The notes under the pieces: generated by a model
What the model saw: only the letters and a program-made list of their open reading frames with translations
The model's database searches: none
What the model was told of the DNA's origin: nothing
Assembly (NCBI GenBank): GCA_902536555.1
Contig: CACAXR010000006.1
Location: 1-57,292 of the forward strand
DNA from: an uncultured Prochlorococcus sp.
GTDB taxonomy: Bacteria; Cyanobacteriota; Cyanobacteriia; PCC-6307; Cyanobiaceae
Reading direction: 5' to 3'
Length of the DNA: 57,292 nucleotides
Made by a program: the position numbers and the translations under genes
Shown: positions 16,926-22,663 of the stretch, in pieces
How the letters are laid out: the number at the start of each line of letters is the position of its first letter
Position numbering within the stretch: position 1 is the stretch's first letter

Positions 16926-18125
16926 ATGCAAAATAGGCAAACAAATCAGGTATTTAATTTTGACAAATTTCGAAATTTTGAAAAAGATATAGATCTAAAA
17001 CAAAGAGCATGGATCGAAGTTAAAGGTAAAGCAATAGAAACAAACGTTAGACAGTTAAGATCAAAATTAAGTAAAAATTGTCAATTTATGGCAGTCGTTA
17101 AAGCTGATGGATATGGACATGATGCGAAATTAGTATCAGAGTATGCTATCAAAGGTGGAGCATCTCAATTAGGTGTTGCCACATTAAATGAAGGCATTAA
17201 GCTTCGTTCTTCTGGAGTTAAAAAACCAATACTTATACTCGGAAATCTTTATACGAAAAGGGATCTTCTTATATGTTTTAAAAATGATCTTATGCCAACT
17301 ATCAGTACTATAAGAGAATGTTTAATTTGCAATAACATTGGTAAGCAATTTGGATTGAAATTTCTTTTACATCTTAAAGTTGATACGGGAATGTCAAGAT
17401 TAGGATTTGAATACAGTAAATTTGTTCAGCAATTTGAAAAAATTAAATCTTTTGAGAACATTTTAATAGAAGGAATATATAGTCATTTATCTTCTGCAGA
17501 TGAAGCTAACGCATTAGATCCTGAAAGTATTACACAACTACAAAGACTTAAGTTTAATGAAATATTAAAGCAAATTAATTTTGATCGAAATAATGAAATT
17601 AAGATTCATTTGGCTAATTCTGCAGGAATGCTCATTAACAAAGATTTTCATTTTAAGATGGTACGTGTTGGGCTTTCTATGTATGGATACAGTCCTTTAG
17701 ACAAAATAGATAAAAATTTATCACTTAAACCAGCTTTATCTTTGAAGGTCAAAGTAGCTTTTATAAGAAATATTGATAAAGGTGTAAGTGTAAGTTATGG
17801 AGGCAAATTTGTAAGTCATAGAAAAACTAAGTTAGCTGTATTAAGTATTGGTTATGCAGATGGTGTACCAAGAAATCTTTCAGGCAAGATTAACGTAATT
17901 TACAATAATAAATTTTATCCTCAAGTTGGATCTATAACTATGGACCAAATGATGATAGACATAACAGATTCTAATGAAATTAAAGTTGGTAGTACCATGT
18001 TATTACTAGGATCTGATGGAGATAAAACAATTTCTCCTCTTGAATGGGCAAGAAAATCTAATACTATTCCTTGGGAAATTCTTTGTTCTTTTAAAAATAG
18101 ATTACCTAAAGTTCAAGTAGATTAG
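16926..18125 (+). CDS. alr: Alanine racemase
   Basis: Alanine racemase makes D-alanine for peptidoglycan using pyridoxal phosphate. The PLP lysine is in MAVVKADGYGHDAK (around residue 60), and the second catalytic base, a tyrosine, is in VSVSYGGKFVS around residue 300. HLKVDTGMSRLGF and SIGYADGVPR are further signatures. At 399 residues it is about 25 longer than usual at the N-terminus, so the true start could be further in. The gene points at the tRNA-Ser island. Confidence 0.95.
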   Translation: MQNRQTNQVFNFDKFRNFEKDIDLKQRAWIEVKGKAIETNVRQLRSKLSKNCQFMAVVKADGYGHDAKLVSEYAIKGGASQLGVATLNEGIKLRSSGVKKPILILGNLYTKRDLLICFKNDLMPTISTIRECLICNNIGKQFGLKFLLHLKVDTGMSRLGFEYSKFVQQFEKIKSFENILIEGIYSHLSSADEANALDPESITQLQRLKFNEILKQINFDRNNEIKIHLANSAGMLINKDFHFKMVRVGLSMYGYSPLDKIDKNLSLKPALSLKVKVAFIRNIDKGVSVSYGGKFVSHRKTKLAVLSIGYADGVPRNLSGKINVIYNNKFYPQVGSITMDQMMIDITDSNEIKVGSTMLLLGSDGDKTISPLEWARKSNTIPWEILCSFKNRLPKVQVD

Positions 18126-18186: not shown

Positions 18187-18275
18187 GGAGAGGTGGCTGA
18201 GTGGTTGAAAGCGGCTCCCTGCTAAGGAGTTACAGGAGGTAACTTTTGTCGAGGGTTCGAATCCCTCCCTCTCCG
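18187..18275 (+). tRNA. tRNA-Ser (anticodon GCT)
   Basis: A class II tRNA of 89 nt: acceptor stem GGAGAGG/CCTCTCC, D arm from GGCTGAGTGG, anticodon loop containing GCT for AGC and AGU codons, a long variable arm, and the T arm GAGGGTTCGAATCCCTC. CCA is not encoded. Its 3' end is partly repeated at 21823-21839, so it appears to have been used as an integration site while staying intact. Confidence 0.96.
18259..18275 (+). repeat. Left att-like core within the tRNA-Ser 3' end
   Basis: GAATCCCTCCCTCTCCG at the 3' end of tRNA-Ser matches 21823-21839 at 15 of 17 positions, with the last 12 identical. tRNA 3' ends are classic targets for tyrosine recombinases, and a partial copy at the far end is the expected mark of integration. 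Confidence 0.5.
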
Positions 18276-18517
18276 CTCTTTTGGAAGAGTATGGTAGTTC
18301 ATAATGTTCCTGAAGCTATTGATACTAATACTTTTGCAGAAAAAATAAAATCAGAGACATTCACAGAGTATCACTGAATTTCATGTTTTAGGGGTAGGAA
18401 AAAGGGTAGGAAATATAAGTGCAGAGGGTTGGAAATTTTTGGCGAAATCCAAGTCGTTGCAAGGTATGCCTGCATTACGACAAAACCACCCGACAGATAT
18501 GGCTACAAAAGGATGAA
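18276..18517. other. Gene-free left end of the island
   Basis: CTCTT/AAGAG (18276-18280 and 18285-18289) forms a small hairpin directly after the tRNA. A 28-codon frame (18291-18377) and a stop-free stretch of 55 codons without a start (18349-18516) are present, neither recognisable as a gene. The double repeat GGGTAGGAAA (18392-18401, 18404-18413) lies in the middle. It may be a decayed coding remnant or recombination site arms. Confidence 0.4.
18392..18413 (+). repeat. Left pair of GGGTAGGAAA direct repeats
   Basis: Two identical 10-mers start 12 bases apart, about 117 bases inside the left end of the island. A similar pair in the same orientation and with the same 12-base pitch occurs at 21739-21760. 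Pairs of short repeats inside both ends resemble integrase arm-type sites, though function is inferred. Confidence 0.55.
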
Positions 18518-20254
18518 TTAATCATTAAAACTTTCAATTATTTCTTTAGTTGAATAAATTCCTACAAATGGTGCTGTAAATTCTCTAATAACGCCCGTAC
18601 TTTTTCCTAAAAAACTATTTTTAACAGATATTAAATCTCCTTCTTTTACAAAAGGATTCCTTTTTGAACCTTTTTTTGCTCTAGCAGAATAAGAAATATT
18701 TTTGTTTAAAATTGTTCCATCTTTGTTGTACCTTATCAAAACAATTTTCCCTGATAGAGGTTTTATCGGTCCAGTTAAATTTATCGCATCTGATAAGGCA
18801 GCCTCTAGGGGTAATTTTATAGTTCCAGGATTTTCGACTCTACCAAATATATCTACTGTTATAAATCTTGGAGAAAGACCGCTTAGGATTGATTTTGGGA
18901 TGATATCAGAAGAAGCTATTGCAAGCTTTGGTAAAAATATTCTATCTCCGTCAAATAATCTAATATCGTTAGTAGGATCACTTTCATTTAGAAAAGAAGT
19001 AAAATCGATTACTGCTCTTTGTTTCCCACCTCCTTTTCCAATGGGTATATCTCTTATTATTTCGATGCGAGACAAATCAGTTTTAGAAGTTATTCCTCCA
19101 GCTTTTCTAAGTGCATTAGAAATAGTAGTGAAATTTTCGGATGGTCTTTTTATTTGGAAATTTTGCCTTGCAGTATTATTTTGTGCATTTTGATTTAAAG
19201 ATGTATTTGATTCCCTTCTATTCAATTCCACTTTAGTGATATTATCGCCATCAATTTCTTTTGAAATAGAATCTGCAGCATCATTTTTCATTTCGCCTTT
19301 TTGAGAAGTATCATCTTTTATATTTTCTACTGCAAGAAACTCTCCAGAACTATAACCTGGGAATTTATAGATTCCAGGATTTCTTATTTCGCCAGATATT
19401 AATATTCTTTGAGGTTTAAAGTTAGCTATTCTAATTTCTACTTCTGAAGAAATATATTCCGAATTTAAATATTTTTTACTTAATAAATTAGATATTTCAT
19501 TTGTAGTTAACCCCCTAACGTAAGTTTCTTTAAGGAGTGGGAGCATAAGCTCTCCTTCGTTATTAATTGAATAAATTCCAGAACCCATAAATCTAAATCC
19601 TGAAATTCGGATCTCAATTTCAGGATCAATAAGGAATTCTTTATATTTTTTCTCTAATAATTTTTTTAATTGATATATTTTAAGACCCTTTATATAAGTT
19701 GATTTCAATCGAGAAAGATATATTTCTCCTTCCTGATCAATTGTTTGGTTAACATTTAGTTCGGGAGCTTTAAAAAATCGAATAGATAAAGTATCTCCCT
19801 CATCTAATTTGTAATTTCTTAAATCATTCCTAGGGTTCAGATAGGATATATTTTCTGGATCATATTCCCATTCAATTAATCCTAATCCTCTTGGTTTATT
19901 TTTAAATTCTATTAATAGAGAATCTCCAGTATCAACAATGTAGTCCTCTAATTCATTCTTTGGATCTAAATAATCAATATCAATCTCAGTTCTATTTTTC
20001 GCATTTTCAAGAATTATTTCAATAGTTTCTGAATCAATATTGAGGTCTTTTAATTTATTTCTTGATTCTAAATAATCTAGTGCAAGCTCACCATTACTAC
20101 TATTCAAAGTTTTATTATCACTGCCTGCCTTGACGAGGTCAAATATAAAAACAGATATTAAAAAATTAAAAATAAAAAGGAAGTTTAAATTACTTCTAAA
20201 TGAGAGCAATTTTGAAAATATTTTTTTTGCTTCCTTTTGATTAGTCAAGAACAA
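18518..20254 (-). CDS. Polysaccharide export (OPX/Wza-like) protein with SLBB domains
   Basis: Proteins of this family form or feed the outer-membrane exit for capsular or extracellular polysaccharide. The 578-residue protein has a hydrophobic signal-like segment at about residues 24-41 (FLFIFNFLISVFIFDLV). DEGDTLSIRFFKAPELNVNQ around 151-170 begins a polysaccharide export domain, followed by a duplicated wing (181-220 and 240-279) and SLBB-type segments beginning ILISGEIRNPGIYKFPG (284-300) and DIFGRVENPGTIKLP. Three N-terminal repeats of the form YLxPxNxL occur near residues 61, 95 and 138. No partner Wzc or flippase gene is nearby. Confidence 0.85.
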   Translation of the reverse strand: MFLTNQKEAKKIFSKLLSFRSNLNFLFIFNFLISVFIFDLVKAGSDNKTLNSSNGELALDYLESRNKLKDLNIDSETIEIILENAKNRTEIDIDYLDPKNELEDYIVDTGDSLLIEFKNKPRGLGLIEWEYDPENISYLNPRNDLRNYKLDEGDTLSIRFFKAPELNVNQTIDQEGEIYLSRLKSTYIKGLKIYQLKKLLEKKYKEFLIDPEIEIRISGFRFMGSGIYSINNEGELMLPLLKETYVRGLTTNEISNLLSKKYLNSEYISSEVEIRIANFKPQRILISGEIRNPGIYKFPGYSSGEFLAVENIKDDTSQKGEMKNDAADSISKEIDGDNITKVELNRRESNTSLNQNAQNNTARQNFQIKRPSENFTTISNALRKAGGITSKTDLSRIEIIRDIPIGKGGGKQRAVIDFTSFLNESDPTNDIRLFDGDRIFLPKLAIASSDIIPKSILSGLSPRFITVDIFGRVENPGTIKLPLEAALSDAINLTGPIKPLSGKIVLIRYNKDGTILNKNISYSARAKKGSKRNPFVKEGDLISVKNSFLGKSTGVIREFTAPFVGIYSTKEIIESFND

Positions 20255-20279
20255 GAAATTTAATCTTCTTTCCTTTATA

Positions 20280-20297
20280 TTACTAGTATTTTACTAG
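20280..20297. promoter_or_regulatory. Tandem TTACTAG operator-like sites before the OPX gene
   Basis: TTACTAG occurs at 20280-20286 and 20291-20297, each inside the palindrome TACTAGTA, 11 bases apart, which is one helical turn. They lie 26-43 bases upstream of the OPX start. Two more copies lie upstream of the DUF3764-like gene. The neighbouring ribbon-helix-helix protein is a natural candidate to bind them. Confidence 0.45.
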
Positions 20298-20462
20298 TAA
20301 AGTACTTCAAAAATAGTAATTTTAAATATATTATTGTTAATTTTGTAACTATAAATCTAGTCTAAAGAAATTTTTCAGGCAAAAGTTCTGCTTTTAAATA
20401 TTCGAATATTCATAAAATTAATATTCATTTTTAATTTTATTTGGGTTTCTAATTAGATTTTT

Positions 20463-20984
20463 TTAAATTTTATCTTCTATGAGTAAAACCAAGGAACCTC
20501 CTAAGTTGCAAATTAAATCTTGAGTAGGATACTCATTAGAACCAATCCATTCTTTTAATCCTAAATATATTGGGCATTCACATTCTCTTTTTCTTGTTAT
20601 GGAATTTAATTCCTCTGCATTCCAAGGAGAAGTTGAGTCATCAAGCAAAATTTCTTTCAATCGTTTTGTATAGTCCTTATTCCATTGTTTGGAAGATGCT
20701 ATATGCTTTATAAGCTCATTAAATGCATCTATATCGCTTGAATAAGGCTTTTTAATACGCTTTTTTTGAAATAATGCCCTCATGAAATTAGTGCAATTCA
20801 AGGCGTCCATTTCCGAAAAAGGATTTTTTTTATTTGAGACATCTTCTCTTTTACTAGAAACTATTTTCCTAAGGGAATTTCTTATAAAAACACTTAAAGC
20901 TAAATCCTCGGACAAAGCACAAGTTTTTAATTGCTTTAGTAAAGCCTCATCGATATTTATATTTAACTGATGTCTTTTTTTCAA
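20463..20984 (-). CDS. Ribbon-helix-helix domain protein of unknown role
   Basis: A 173-residue protein. The first 45 residues (HQLNINIDEALLKQLKTCAL, then SVFIRNSLRKIV) fit a ribbon-helix-helix DNA-binding fold: a short strand followed by two helices. The rest is not recognised; it contains KKPYSSDIDAFNELIKHIAS, a central RKRECECP segment and a hydrophobic C-terminus (LICNLGGSLVLLIEDKI). It lies in the tRNA-Ser island between the export gene and the DUF3764-like gene, both of which have TTACTAG sites upstream. A role as local regulator is inferred, not shown. Confidence 0.7.
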   Translation of the reverse strand: MKKRHQLNINIDEALLKQLKTCALSEDLALSVFIRNSLRKIVSSKREDVSNKKNPFSEMDALNCTNFMRALFQKKRIKKPYSSDIDAFNELIKHIASSKQWNKDYTKRLKEILLDDSTSPWNAEELNSITRKRECECPIYLGLKEWIGSNEYPTQDLICNLGGSLVLLIEDKI

Positions 20985-21081
20985 ATCAAATTTAAAGATA
21001 ATTTAATTCTACTGAATTATTTGATTTTTAATAGACCCTTTTATCAGGATGATTTACGATGAAAGTTTGTATTCAAATAAA

Positions 21082-21107
21082 TTACTAGATATATACCAAT
21101 TTACTAG
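21082..21107. promoter_or_regulatory. TTACTAG pair between the RHH and DUF3764-like genes
   Basis: TTACTAG recurs at 21082-21088 and 21101-21107, 36-61 bases upstream of the DUF3764-like start and about 100-123 bases upstream of the divergent ribbon-helix-helix start. The same heptamer is doubled in front of the OPX gene. The arrangement fits autoregulation plus control of both flanking genes. Confidence 0.4.
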
Positions 21108-21142
21108 TTATATTCATCAGTAATTAAAGATGATAAATTTTT

Positions 21143-21418
21143 ATGGGAAGAAAGCTAACAACTGTCTTCACTTTCGCAATACACTCTACTTTTGATCAAT
21201 GGTTAGAATTCTTTGATAGCAAAGAAGCATTTGAAAGACTTTCTGAATTTGATATCAAGCCTCTTTATAGAGGTCAAAGCAAGCAAGATCCACAAAAAGT
21301 TATTGTTATTCATCAGGCTCCTGAGGGAAATATGCAAAAGTTCTTTGAAATACATGGCTCTTGGATAGCTACTCATGGAGTTAATATCTCGACAATAGAA
21401 GTTTCAGATTGGATATAA
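21143..21418 (+). CDS. DUF3764-like small protein
   Basis: A 91-residue protein resembling the DUF3764 family that I know from marine picocyanobacteria; its fold resembles small ferredoxin-like stress or signalling domains. Recognisable stretches are TTVFTFAIHSTFDQWLEFFD, FDIKPLYRGQSKQDPQKVIV and IHQAPEGNMQKFFE. It has no signal peptide or membrane segment. Function is unknown. It is the only forward gene in the tRNA-Ser island and has two TTACTAG sites upstream. Confidence 0.75.
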   Translation: MGRKLTTVFTFAIHSTFDQWLEFFDSKEAFERLSEFDIKPLYRGQSKQDPQKVIVIHQAPEGNMQKFFEIHGSWIATHGVNISTIEVSDWI

Positions 21419-21607
21419 AACGCTAACTAATTGTAATGAATTTACAACATCCCAGGCATTCTGAAAAAATTTAATAAATCTCTCTTATGTATCTCGTAAA
21501 TATCGACTAATTTGCCGCAACAAAAAGCCTTACTTTCCTAAATAGGAACTTTGATGGATGATAAATTTATAATTTTACCTTTCCGTGAACGATTTTTTTC
21601 TAGTCAT

Positions 21608-21661
21608 TCAGGAGTTGACTTCTAGCATTAAATTTTTAATCCTTGGTTAACTAACTCCTGA
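21608..21661. repeat. Nine-base inverted repeat in the island right end
   Basis: TCAGGAGTT (21608-21616) and AACTCCTGA (21653-21661) are perfect complements with a 36-base spacer. There is no T-run after the right arm. It may be an RNA hairpin or a protein-binding site belonging to the island. Confidence 0.4.
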
Positions 21662-21738
21662 TTCCACACAATCTCCATTATCCAAATACATTCCCAAATC
21701 ATGGAAATTAAGGGTTTAAATTGCATTAAAAACATAGA

Positions 21739-21760
21739 GGGTGGGATTTAGGGTAGGAAA
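21739..21760 (+). repeat. Right pair of GGGTAGGAAA-type direct repeats
   Basis: GGGTGGGATT (21739-21748) and GGGTAGGAAA (21751-21760) start 12 bases apart, the same pitch and orientation as the exact pair at 18392-18413. They lie about 65-90 bases inside the partial tRNA copy. Confidence 0.5.
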
Positions 21761-21783
21761 TCCTCCTTTTTTATTTTTTATGC

Positions 21784-21809
21784 TTCCATATAGTTCCATA
21801 TGCTTCCAT
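21784..21809 (+). repeat. Three TTCCAT repeats at 10-base pitch
   Basis: TTCCAT occurs at 21784-21789, 21794-21799 and 21804-21809, exactly 10 bases apart, so all three face the same side of the helix. They sit next to the right att-like core. This is how binding sites for small recombination or architectural proteins are often spaced. Confidence 0.5.
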
Positions 21810-21822
21810 TTAGGTTCACTCT

Positions 21823-21839
21823 GAAGTCCTCCCTCTCCG
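21823..21839 (+). repeat. Right att-like core, partial copy of the tRNA-Ser 3' end
   Basis: GAAGTCCTCCCTCTCCG matches the last 17 bases of tRNA-Ser at 15 positions, the final 12 being identical. Nothing upstream of it resembles the rest of a tRNA, so it is a 3' fragment, as left by site-specific integration. Confidence 0.5.
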
Positions 21840-21874: not shown

Positions 21875-22663
21875 TTAAAACAAGTCAAGATCAACATCTT
21901 CTAGGTCATAAATAGAATTTAAAATCAAGTCAGCGCCTGCATTTCTAAGATTTGTTTCGTAAGAATTACGTTCTTTTAATCGAGAATCTAAATGTAAATG
22001 AGGGGGAGCTATTCCGATACTTATGAATTTCTGAGATGGTATTTCCTTTCTAGCGTTTATAACTGTATTTATATCTGCAATAGTATCTCCTACATATGCA
22101 ATGGGAATATTTGATTCACCAATTTTATCTCCAATAAGCTTTTTTGATAAGTTAATAAAACCTTTAGGATCAGGCTTATCAGGGGCATCTCCCATAGATA
22201 TTAATGGTGGTGATTTTAGTCCAAGTCTTTTTTCTAAAACAAATTTTGCAGAAGCAGACTCTGCACCACTAACAAAACCCCAGATTATTCCATTATCTTG
22301 AATTAAATCAAAAAACTTTTTATCAACTAATAACTCCTCATTTGTTATGTAACCCGACCAGTATTTACTATCTTTATTTGGATCTCCACCAAAGTAAAAC
22401 TTTTCAAAACATTTTACTATCTCCTCTCTTGGAGGAATTTTAAGGTTTAAGTTTTCTTTTTTTATACATCTTGTTATAAGTTCTAAACTTAAATCCCAGT
22501 CATTATTCCAGATCCCTTCATTTTTGGCATTATCAATATCTATATAACTTGGCTCCCATCCGGTAAATTTGTAGACAGTTTTTTTTAATGAAAGTCTGTA
22601 ACTATTCTCCACGCTGCGGATTACCCCATCAATGTCAAACAAAATTAAACCAATATTTTTCAA
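21875..22663 (-). CDS. HAD-superfamily hydrolase (subfamily IA type)
   Basis: A 262-residue phosphatase-like protein. Motif I is LILFDIDGVIRSVENSY (nucleophilic Asp at residue 9 and Asp 11), motif II falls in GFVSGAESASA, the motif III lysine in DKPDPKGFINL, and motif IV is AYVGDTIADINTV. It resembles the cyanobacterial TIGR01548 group, whose substrate is not known to me. It is co-directional with cbiG-cobJ upstream, with a gap of about 100 bases. Confidence 0.85.
   Translation of the reverse strand: MKNIGLILFDIDGVIRSVENSYRLSLKKTVYKFTGWEPSYIDIDNAKNEGIWNNDWDLSLELITRCIKKENLNLKIPPREEIVKCFEKFYFGGDPNKDSKYWSGYITNEELLVDKKFFDLIQDNGIIWGFVSGAESASAKFVLEKRLGLKSPPLISMGDAPDKPDPKGFINLSKKLIGDKIGESNIPIAYVGDTIADINTVINARKEIPSQKFISIGIAPPHLHLDSRLKERNSYETNLRNAGADLILNSIYDLEDVDLDLF

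Follow-up and report, generated by a model that had tools for sequence, protein, structure and literature searches.

Can a short island behind a serine tRNA gene be a mobile element when it has no recombinase of its own, and what would move it? The island in question lies in a 57,292-nt stretch of DNA from an uncultured Prochlorococcus sp. (GenBank contig CACAXR010000006.1, here called the window), between an intact tRNA-Ser(GCT) gene and a second copy of its 3' end, with a copy-to-copy length of 3,564 bp. The original prediction, made from the letters alone, had likened it to the tycheposons of Prochlorococcus, which were reportedly described by Hackl et al. in Cell in 2023. The two copies, GAATCCCTCCCTCTCCG (18259-18275) and GAAGTCCTCCCTCTCCG (21823-21839), match at 15 of 17 bases with the final 12 identical, as had been claimed, and the 17-mer occurs in the window at these two places only when up to 3 mismatches are allowed (0.02 expected by chance). 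Each end also carries paired repeats, and their claimed positions, shared orientation and 12-base pitch were all borne out (2 matches at up to 3 mismatches, with 0.00 expected from 100 shuffles). From these features and from the comparisons below, we consider the island quite probably a tycheposon-like, non-autonomous element that occupies the 3' end of tRNA-Ser(GCT) and whose repeats serve as arm words read by an integrase.

We took a census of the locus by scanning genome contigs with the neighboring HAD protein and keeping the best 80 of 557 confirmed stretches. HAD and tRNA-Ser(GCT) were both present in 76 of these 80 loci, the fetched stretch containing no tRNA gene in 4; the window and loci L001 and L004 were obtained separately and are not among the 76. 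We found 52 empty sites, where HAD was joined directly to tRNA-Ser(GCT) with a single core, CTCCCTCTCCG, followed by TGATTTATT in 34 cases, and 24 occupied sites with inserts of 0.25 to 8.3 kb that differed in their genes. Of the 24 occupied sites, 17 had a second exact CTCCCTCTCCG at their far edge, and in the other 7 this copy was altered or not found. The search for empty alr-tRNA-Ser/HAD sites with one core, suggested along with the original prediction, thus succeeded, as did that for alternative cargo, and the locus is a real integration site. Cargo among the islands includes OPX proteins, unknown proteins and long open reading frames (ORFs) that by look resemble a carbamoyltransferase, a sulfotransferase, methyltransferases and an acyltransferase. 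Among the 24 occupied sites, 4 (L008, L015, L029, and L081) contained a P4-type integrase, and the remaining 20 held no P4-type integrase remnant by tblastn at E ≤ 1e-3 (other recombinase types were not searched for).

Evaluation of the occupied islands revealed that they usually carry a tandem pair with a pitch of about 12 bp, at +107 to +133 (mostly +112 to +126) on the left and at -78 to -108 on the right. When up to 2 mismatches were allowed, 24 of 32 distinct occupied sites had the pair where it was expected, compared with 0 of 41 distinct empty sites and 82 of 3200 random places; the occupied and empty counts were 18/32 and 0/41 with up to 1 mismatch, and 30/32 and 1/41 with up to 3 (312/3200 at random). 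Heterobivalent (lambda/P4-type) att sites are built in this way, with arm-type repeats to either side of the core at a set distance. The cargo could instead have been swapped by homologous recombination between the flanks, the repeats being there by chance, and the flanks are indeed conserved on both sides, with several islands tracking the divergence of their flanks. We regard this as very improbable, since pairs are in place in most occupied sites and in no empty site at the first two thresholds, tandem arrays have a core between units, and the core-to-core junctions of empty and full sites make it unlikely for the whole locus.

The word that makes up the pair was mostly alike at both ends of one island and changed between islands, taking forms such as GGGTAGGAAAT, GTGTGGCGAA, GGGGGACAATT, TGTTGTTGGGA, AGGGGAT[A/G]AAAT, GGTGGGTAAATT and TGTTGTGA[C/G]GAA. 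A left-right match score of at least 13 was reached by 27 of 35 two-ended elements versus 7 of 922 cross comparisons between different words, and a score of at least 11 by 30 of 35 versus 46 of 922. The grouping of words was done by eye, and an element whose word was unclear was kept out of the cross pairs; the 35 include elements from the integrase and pattern searches (e.g., L162, L171, L173, and L185) as well as close relatives (L015/L029 and L019/L060). Cross pairs with the same word reached a score of 13 in 117 of 200 cases; without the split by word, 204 of 1190 cross comparisons scored at least 11. One locus, L077, has a GGGGGACAATTT-type word on the left and AGGGGATAAAAT on the right and is perhaps a recombinant.

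We then looked for integrases with a profile built from eight of them. The profile found 26 places in 23 of 266 genomes of the genus and had matches in 68 of 400 genomes and 22 of 59 genera of the family, the two samples overlapping; outside the genus, 33 places were taken, namely the 31 best plus those in genomes G524 and G371, and weaker ones were left out. Of 39 integrase loci that have a tRNA gene within reach, 28 showed paired repeats with up to 1 mismatch at +100 to +152, versus 40 of 7544 random windows, and several of the other 11 loci had a looser pair. Integrase elements were flanked by matched pairs at both ends at tRNA-Ser(GCT), Ser(TGA), Ser(CGA) and Asn(GTT), as well as beside tRNA-Thr(GGT) in a single locus (L200), with a pitch of 12 at Ser(GCT) and of 11 or 12 at the other tRNAs. 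The predicted presence of a recombinase beside such repeats in other genomes therefore held for the build and spacing of the pair, while the exact word of the window, GGGTAGGAAA, was met only with a broken, weakly matching gene. Among 33 aligned integrases, Arm-DNA-bind_3 was recognized in 19 and PF00589 in 29 (E ≤ 0.01). The first 112 positions of the profile match the N-terminal integrase fragments 3ju0 and 3jtz, the profile also matches lambda Int, and the predicted integrase fold (mean pLDDT 91) comes nearest to that of lambda Int, at TM-scores no higher than about 0.3 to 0.65.

P4-type integrases share with those of lambda and KplE1 the division between arm-type and core sites. We propose that a P4/lambda-type tyrosine integrase joined the core of the element to the end of the tRNA gene, so that CTCCCTCTCCG now stands at either edge, and that its N-terminal domain would grip the paired 12-bp repeats while its catalytic domain cuts the core. 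For the KplE1 att sites, one study assigns arm-type binding to the N-terminal domain and recombination of the core to the C-terminal domain (PMC2951348). Arm binding predicts that the word co-varies with the N-terminal domain, and this is what we found. Mantel tests covered 34 integrases for which a word could be assigned, three near-identical ones having been dropped from an initial 37; the units of a word could differ at up to 3 positions, and loci without a tRNA gene, L168 and L203 were omitted. Word similarity correlated with domain identity, with r = 0.47 for the N-terminal, 0.41 for the core-binding and 0.42 for the catalytic domain (each p = 0.0002). Partial Mantel tests, which remove shared ancestry only in part, gave r = 0.24 (p = 0.006) for the N-terminal domain given the catalytic one and r = 0.09 (p = 0.13) for the reverse. 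The tRNA-Ser(CGA) subset (n = 23) gave 0.54 for the N-terminal domain, 0.23 (p = 0.03) for this domain given the catalytic one and 0.14 (p = 0.08) for the reverse. Since the co-variation with the N-terminal domain persists after correction for the catalytic domain, the paired repeats are most likely arm-type sites to which the integrase would bind. Another protein (an excisionase/AlpA, a repressor or a promoter factor) might bind them in its place, as an AlpA-family gene adjoining one integrase (L119) and phased motifs near the cores could suggest; we judge this unlikely, because the word tracks the N-terminal domain of the integrase better than the catalytic domain and the distance of the pairs from either end is constant, as for arm sites.

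Pairs of GGGTAGGAAA at tRNA-Ser(GCT) were found around the OPX islands of L025, L187 and L191, around other small cargo (L037) and around a 1-kb unit in which no ORF reaches 75 aa (L185). The pattern occurred in 6 of 266 genus genomes and, at 1 mismatch, in 7 of 400 family genomes, the samples being partly identical. In L183, which comes from another genus and has no tRNA gene on its contig, GGGTAGGAAA pairs are enclosed by cores of the form CACCCTCTCCG, which is how tRNA-Ser(CGA) ends, and the left arm adjoins an apparent broken integrase gene (a 34-residue tblastn match, E 0.007, with an N-terminal part recognized by eye), which suggests that GGGTAGGAAA belongs to an integrase of the P4/lambda-type kind. 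The genome concerned, G524, has a truncated integrase at tRNA-Ser(CGA) (L203) besides the broken one, which lies in a tandem array. In L184 (G465), one GGGTAGGAAA pair is located 2.4 kb from tRNA-Ser(CGA), and a second pair was not found. Two further matches were taken as chance: L186 (G028), inside a repetitive coding stretch, and L133, the sole IMG/VR match of the paired word, in or beside coding sequence on a contig that has phage-like genes and no tRNA gene. Another word, AGGGGATRAA, formed pairs in 8 of 266 genus genomes, 5 of which the integrase profile did not match anywhere; of the integrase loci collected here, only that of G168 has this word, and six loci retrieved for it (L227 to L232, three on census contigs) had no integrase match, most of the genomes being incomplete.

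Several observations weigh against the reading of the island as an integrase-addressed element. No intact integrase with GGGTAGGAAA arms was present in L183 to L191, the stretches fetched around pattern matches, and the link that L183 provides between integrase and GGGTAGGAAA is a weak one. The ends were unmatched (score below 11) in 5 of the 35 elements, the best left-right match of L079 falls outside the pair, and the second element of L081 lacks one 12-nt unit in its left arm. The left arm block ranked 124 of 189 windows for conservation with gaps counted, not above its surroundings, so that an apparent excess without gaps (0.93 versus 0.86) was not upheld; the right arm block ranked 17 of 193, gaps counted. 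OPX islands are 88 to 90% identical to that of the window over the main stretch (L081 also has a 70% stretch) versus 89 to 95% in the flanks, and 70 to 77% identical to the distant L175 versus 77 to 80% in the flanks; some of the alr-side values with L191 rest on short or failed alignments. As the OPX islands diverge at least as much as their flanks, the cargo of the window seems to be long established at the site, through inheritance and loss, and bears no mark of recent transfer.

The same comparison points to more recent movement for some neighboring elements than for their flanks. The islands of the integrase-bearing L015 and L029 are 93 to 96% identical to that of L171, and the flanks 73 to 76%, a difference that points clearly to transfer. 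Island identity was also the higher for L083 and L173 (90% over 335 nt; flanks, 86 to 87%) and for L019 and L060 (96%; flanks, 88% and 94.5%). The opposite direction was seen when L019 and L060 were compared with L063 (islands, 86 to 87%; flanks, 91 to 96%) and for L056 and L079 (77%; flanks, 86 to 93%). L162 and L185 share 365 nt at 99%, with flanks at 87 to 89%; these islands are apparently in opposite orientation, and a plus-strand comparison did not bring this stretch out.

Tandem arrangements provided examples of different words at one core. L125 (AG-347-K16, the same record as L081) has, in order, the tRNA gene, an integrase element with AGGGGATGAAAT at both ends, a core, an OPX element with worn GGGTAGGAAA ends, a core and HAD. 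In L162, an integrase element (TGTTGTTGGGAT) is followed by a 1-kb integrase-less element (AGGGGATAAAAT), and L227 has three consecutive integrase-less units, with AGGGGATAAAAT, GGTGGGTAAATT and, in a 207-nt unit, a single AGGGGATGAAAT pair; the neighboring elements of L173 have similar words. Core-bounded 207-nt units with one arm pair and no cargo were seen twice (L040, whose contig is that of L231, and L227:6784-6990), and they look like products of arm-to-arm deletion, that is, minimal att-only elements. In L057, a 166-nt unit lacks the arm pair as well.

The window island had been said to lack an integrase of its own, and we found no P4-type match in it at E ≤ 1e-3 and no recombinase-like ORF among those listed; the source assembly, 58% complete, has 0 matches to PF00589 and 0 to the integrase profile. 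Because different integrase lineages read different words, the word would work as an address, and with two GGGTAGGAAA-addressed ends and no integrase, only an outside enzyme with the same address could move the island. We give even chances to a history in which the island once had an integrase of its own and lost it by deletion, after which it would have been inherited vertically and occasionally lost, with the arms as leftovers. The divergence of the OPX islands, distant clade included, the left arm of L081 short of one unit, the apparently internally broken integrase of the GGGTAGGAAA element in another genus and the apparent deletion units of L040 and L227 all fit such a history; what fits it less well is that neither the window island nor the 20 census sites without an intact integrase retain a remnant at the tblastn threshold, that 14 of those 20 sites still match left to right at a score of at least 11 (L079 outside the pair), and that the islands of the integrase-less L043 and L175 are more alike (87%) than their flanks (78 to 80%). 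On balance, we lean slightly toward a long-resident relic and put continued movement in trans at somewhat under even; the ends of the island look complete and may still be functional.

The likeness to tycheposons, namely a tRNA-anchored element with cargo genes in the same genus, inserted with a core copy at its far end, stood, and the hallmark tyrosine recombinase was absent, which, together with the small size, places the island outside the tycheposons in the strict sense. The island, at 3.6 kb, is also smaller than the 4 to 200 kb quoted for tycheposons in PMC10872708, the available text of which does not mention paired arm words. Literature searches on tycheposons, on Prochlorococcus with arm-type sites and on arm-type sites with islands or tRNA genes, with most subscription papers outside their coverage, returned no description of such words in the text available. 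With att cores at both ends and neither integrase nor transfer genes, the island has the make-up of a cis-mobilizable element. This is what the authors of a study of Dehalococcoides suggested for 15 islands without an integration module that share one RNA gene, ssrA, with 16 that have one (PMC3146451); the two loci are alike in that mixture, but the recombinase at ssrA is a serine recombinase, whereas a tyrosine integrase, for which the arm word varies, acts at the locus studied here. Unlike the sites of lambda, KplE1 and P4, those described here share one layout among many words and are carried by integrase-less elements. CALIN, integron cassette arrays without an integrase that are mobilized in trans, are likewise integrase-less arrays of cargo units (PMC11389934), whereas the ends here lie at a tRNA gene and consist of core and arms (a comparison by layout; attC sites were not looked for).

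What appears to be new is the arm word, with its common layout, changing sequence and co-variation with the arm domain of the integrase. More tentatively, we suggest that marine picocyanobacteria harbor small integrase-less cassettes of a few genes at tRNA genes, each set between two copies of a private word and moved in trans by any integrase that reads it, and that the words form a mobility address code in which different words allow stacking at one core without excision by the integrase of a neighbor. If true, such cassettes would be a tRNA-anchored, double-stranded counterpart of integron cassettes. Tycheposons are thought to shuffle the flexible genes of Prochlorococcus, yet 20 of 24 occupied sites at tRNA-Ser(GCT) were without a P4-type integrase; a readable end address would tell which integrase moves which cargo and make movement in trans predictable from sequence.

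Table 1. Features of the window island and its flanks, in window coordinates
Feature	Position	Strand	Remark
alr (alanine racemase-like), conserved left flank	16926..18125	+	ORF; same neighbor in related loci
Intact tRNA-Ser(GCT), integration target	18187..18276	+	ARAGORN
Left core CTCCCTCTCCG (tRNA 3' end)	18265..18275	+	Single copy in 52 empty sites
Conserved block TCAGAGACATTCACAGAGTATCAC, upstream of left arm pair	18351..18374	+	
Left arm pair GGGTAGGAAAAA-GGGTAGGAAAT	18392..18414	+	12-bp pitch; +117 from core
Third left copy GGGTTGGAAAT	18426..18436	+	Read directly from sequence; a third copy is seen in relatives too
OPX family polysaccharide export protein (Poly_export + SLBB), cargo	18518..20254	-	
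173-aa protein with ribbon-helix-helix-like N terminus (by look), cargo	20463..20984	-	
DUF3764 protein, cargo	21143..21418	+	E 3.6e-32
Right arm pair GGGTGGGATTTA-GGGTAGGAAAT	21739..21761	+	90 nt before right core
10-bp-phased repeats, TTCCATATxx type, beside right core	21779..21818	+	
Right core copy, 12 bases same as tRNA 3' end	21828..21839	+	
HAD-type hydrolase (name from the original prediction), conserved right flank, used for census	21875..22663	-	ORF

The ORF at 16926..18125 is one that we take, following the original prediction, to be alr (alanine racemase-like). The first unit of the right arm pair is degenerate in the window (GGGTGGGATTTA) and reads GGGTAGGATTTAGGGTAGGAAAT in most relatives. 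Blocks resembling TCAGAGACATTCACAGAGTATCAC stand ahead of many left arms with other words, and this block is possibly an accessory-protein site. No block of the OPX-type right end is better conserved than the phased repeats, a possible excisionase or second integrase site; TTCCATATxx or GTTC-type 10-bp-phased repeats adjoin the right core in several islands.

Analysis of the cargo upheld the predicted identities of the OPX protein (Poly_export, 2.7e-22, plus SLBB domains) and of the DUF3764 protein. The ribbon-helix-helix label of the 173-aa protein rests on the look of its N terminus, because this protein had no Pfam match at E ≤ 0.001; its first 62 residues share 42% identity with a translation from within the L037 island. 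A search for OPX relatives in viral contigs gave 15 pattern stretches, none related, and the 9 phage records matched by the window island were matched in the tRNA gene only. Small resolvase-like genes lie inside integrase-bearing elements, at L125:7095-7670 (confirmed by PF00239) and, by look, at L119:12255-12884, L118:12787-13479 and L117:5530-6198. Finally, tRNA-Ser(GCT) occurs twice in L229:6119-7292 as a full gene; the copies stand about 1.1 kb from each other and enclose an alr-like stretch (masked by N in part) and one AGGGGATAAAAT pair.

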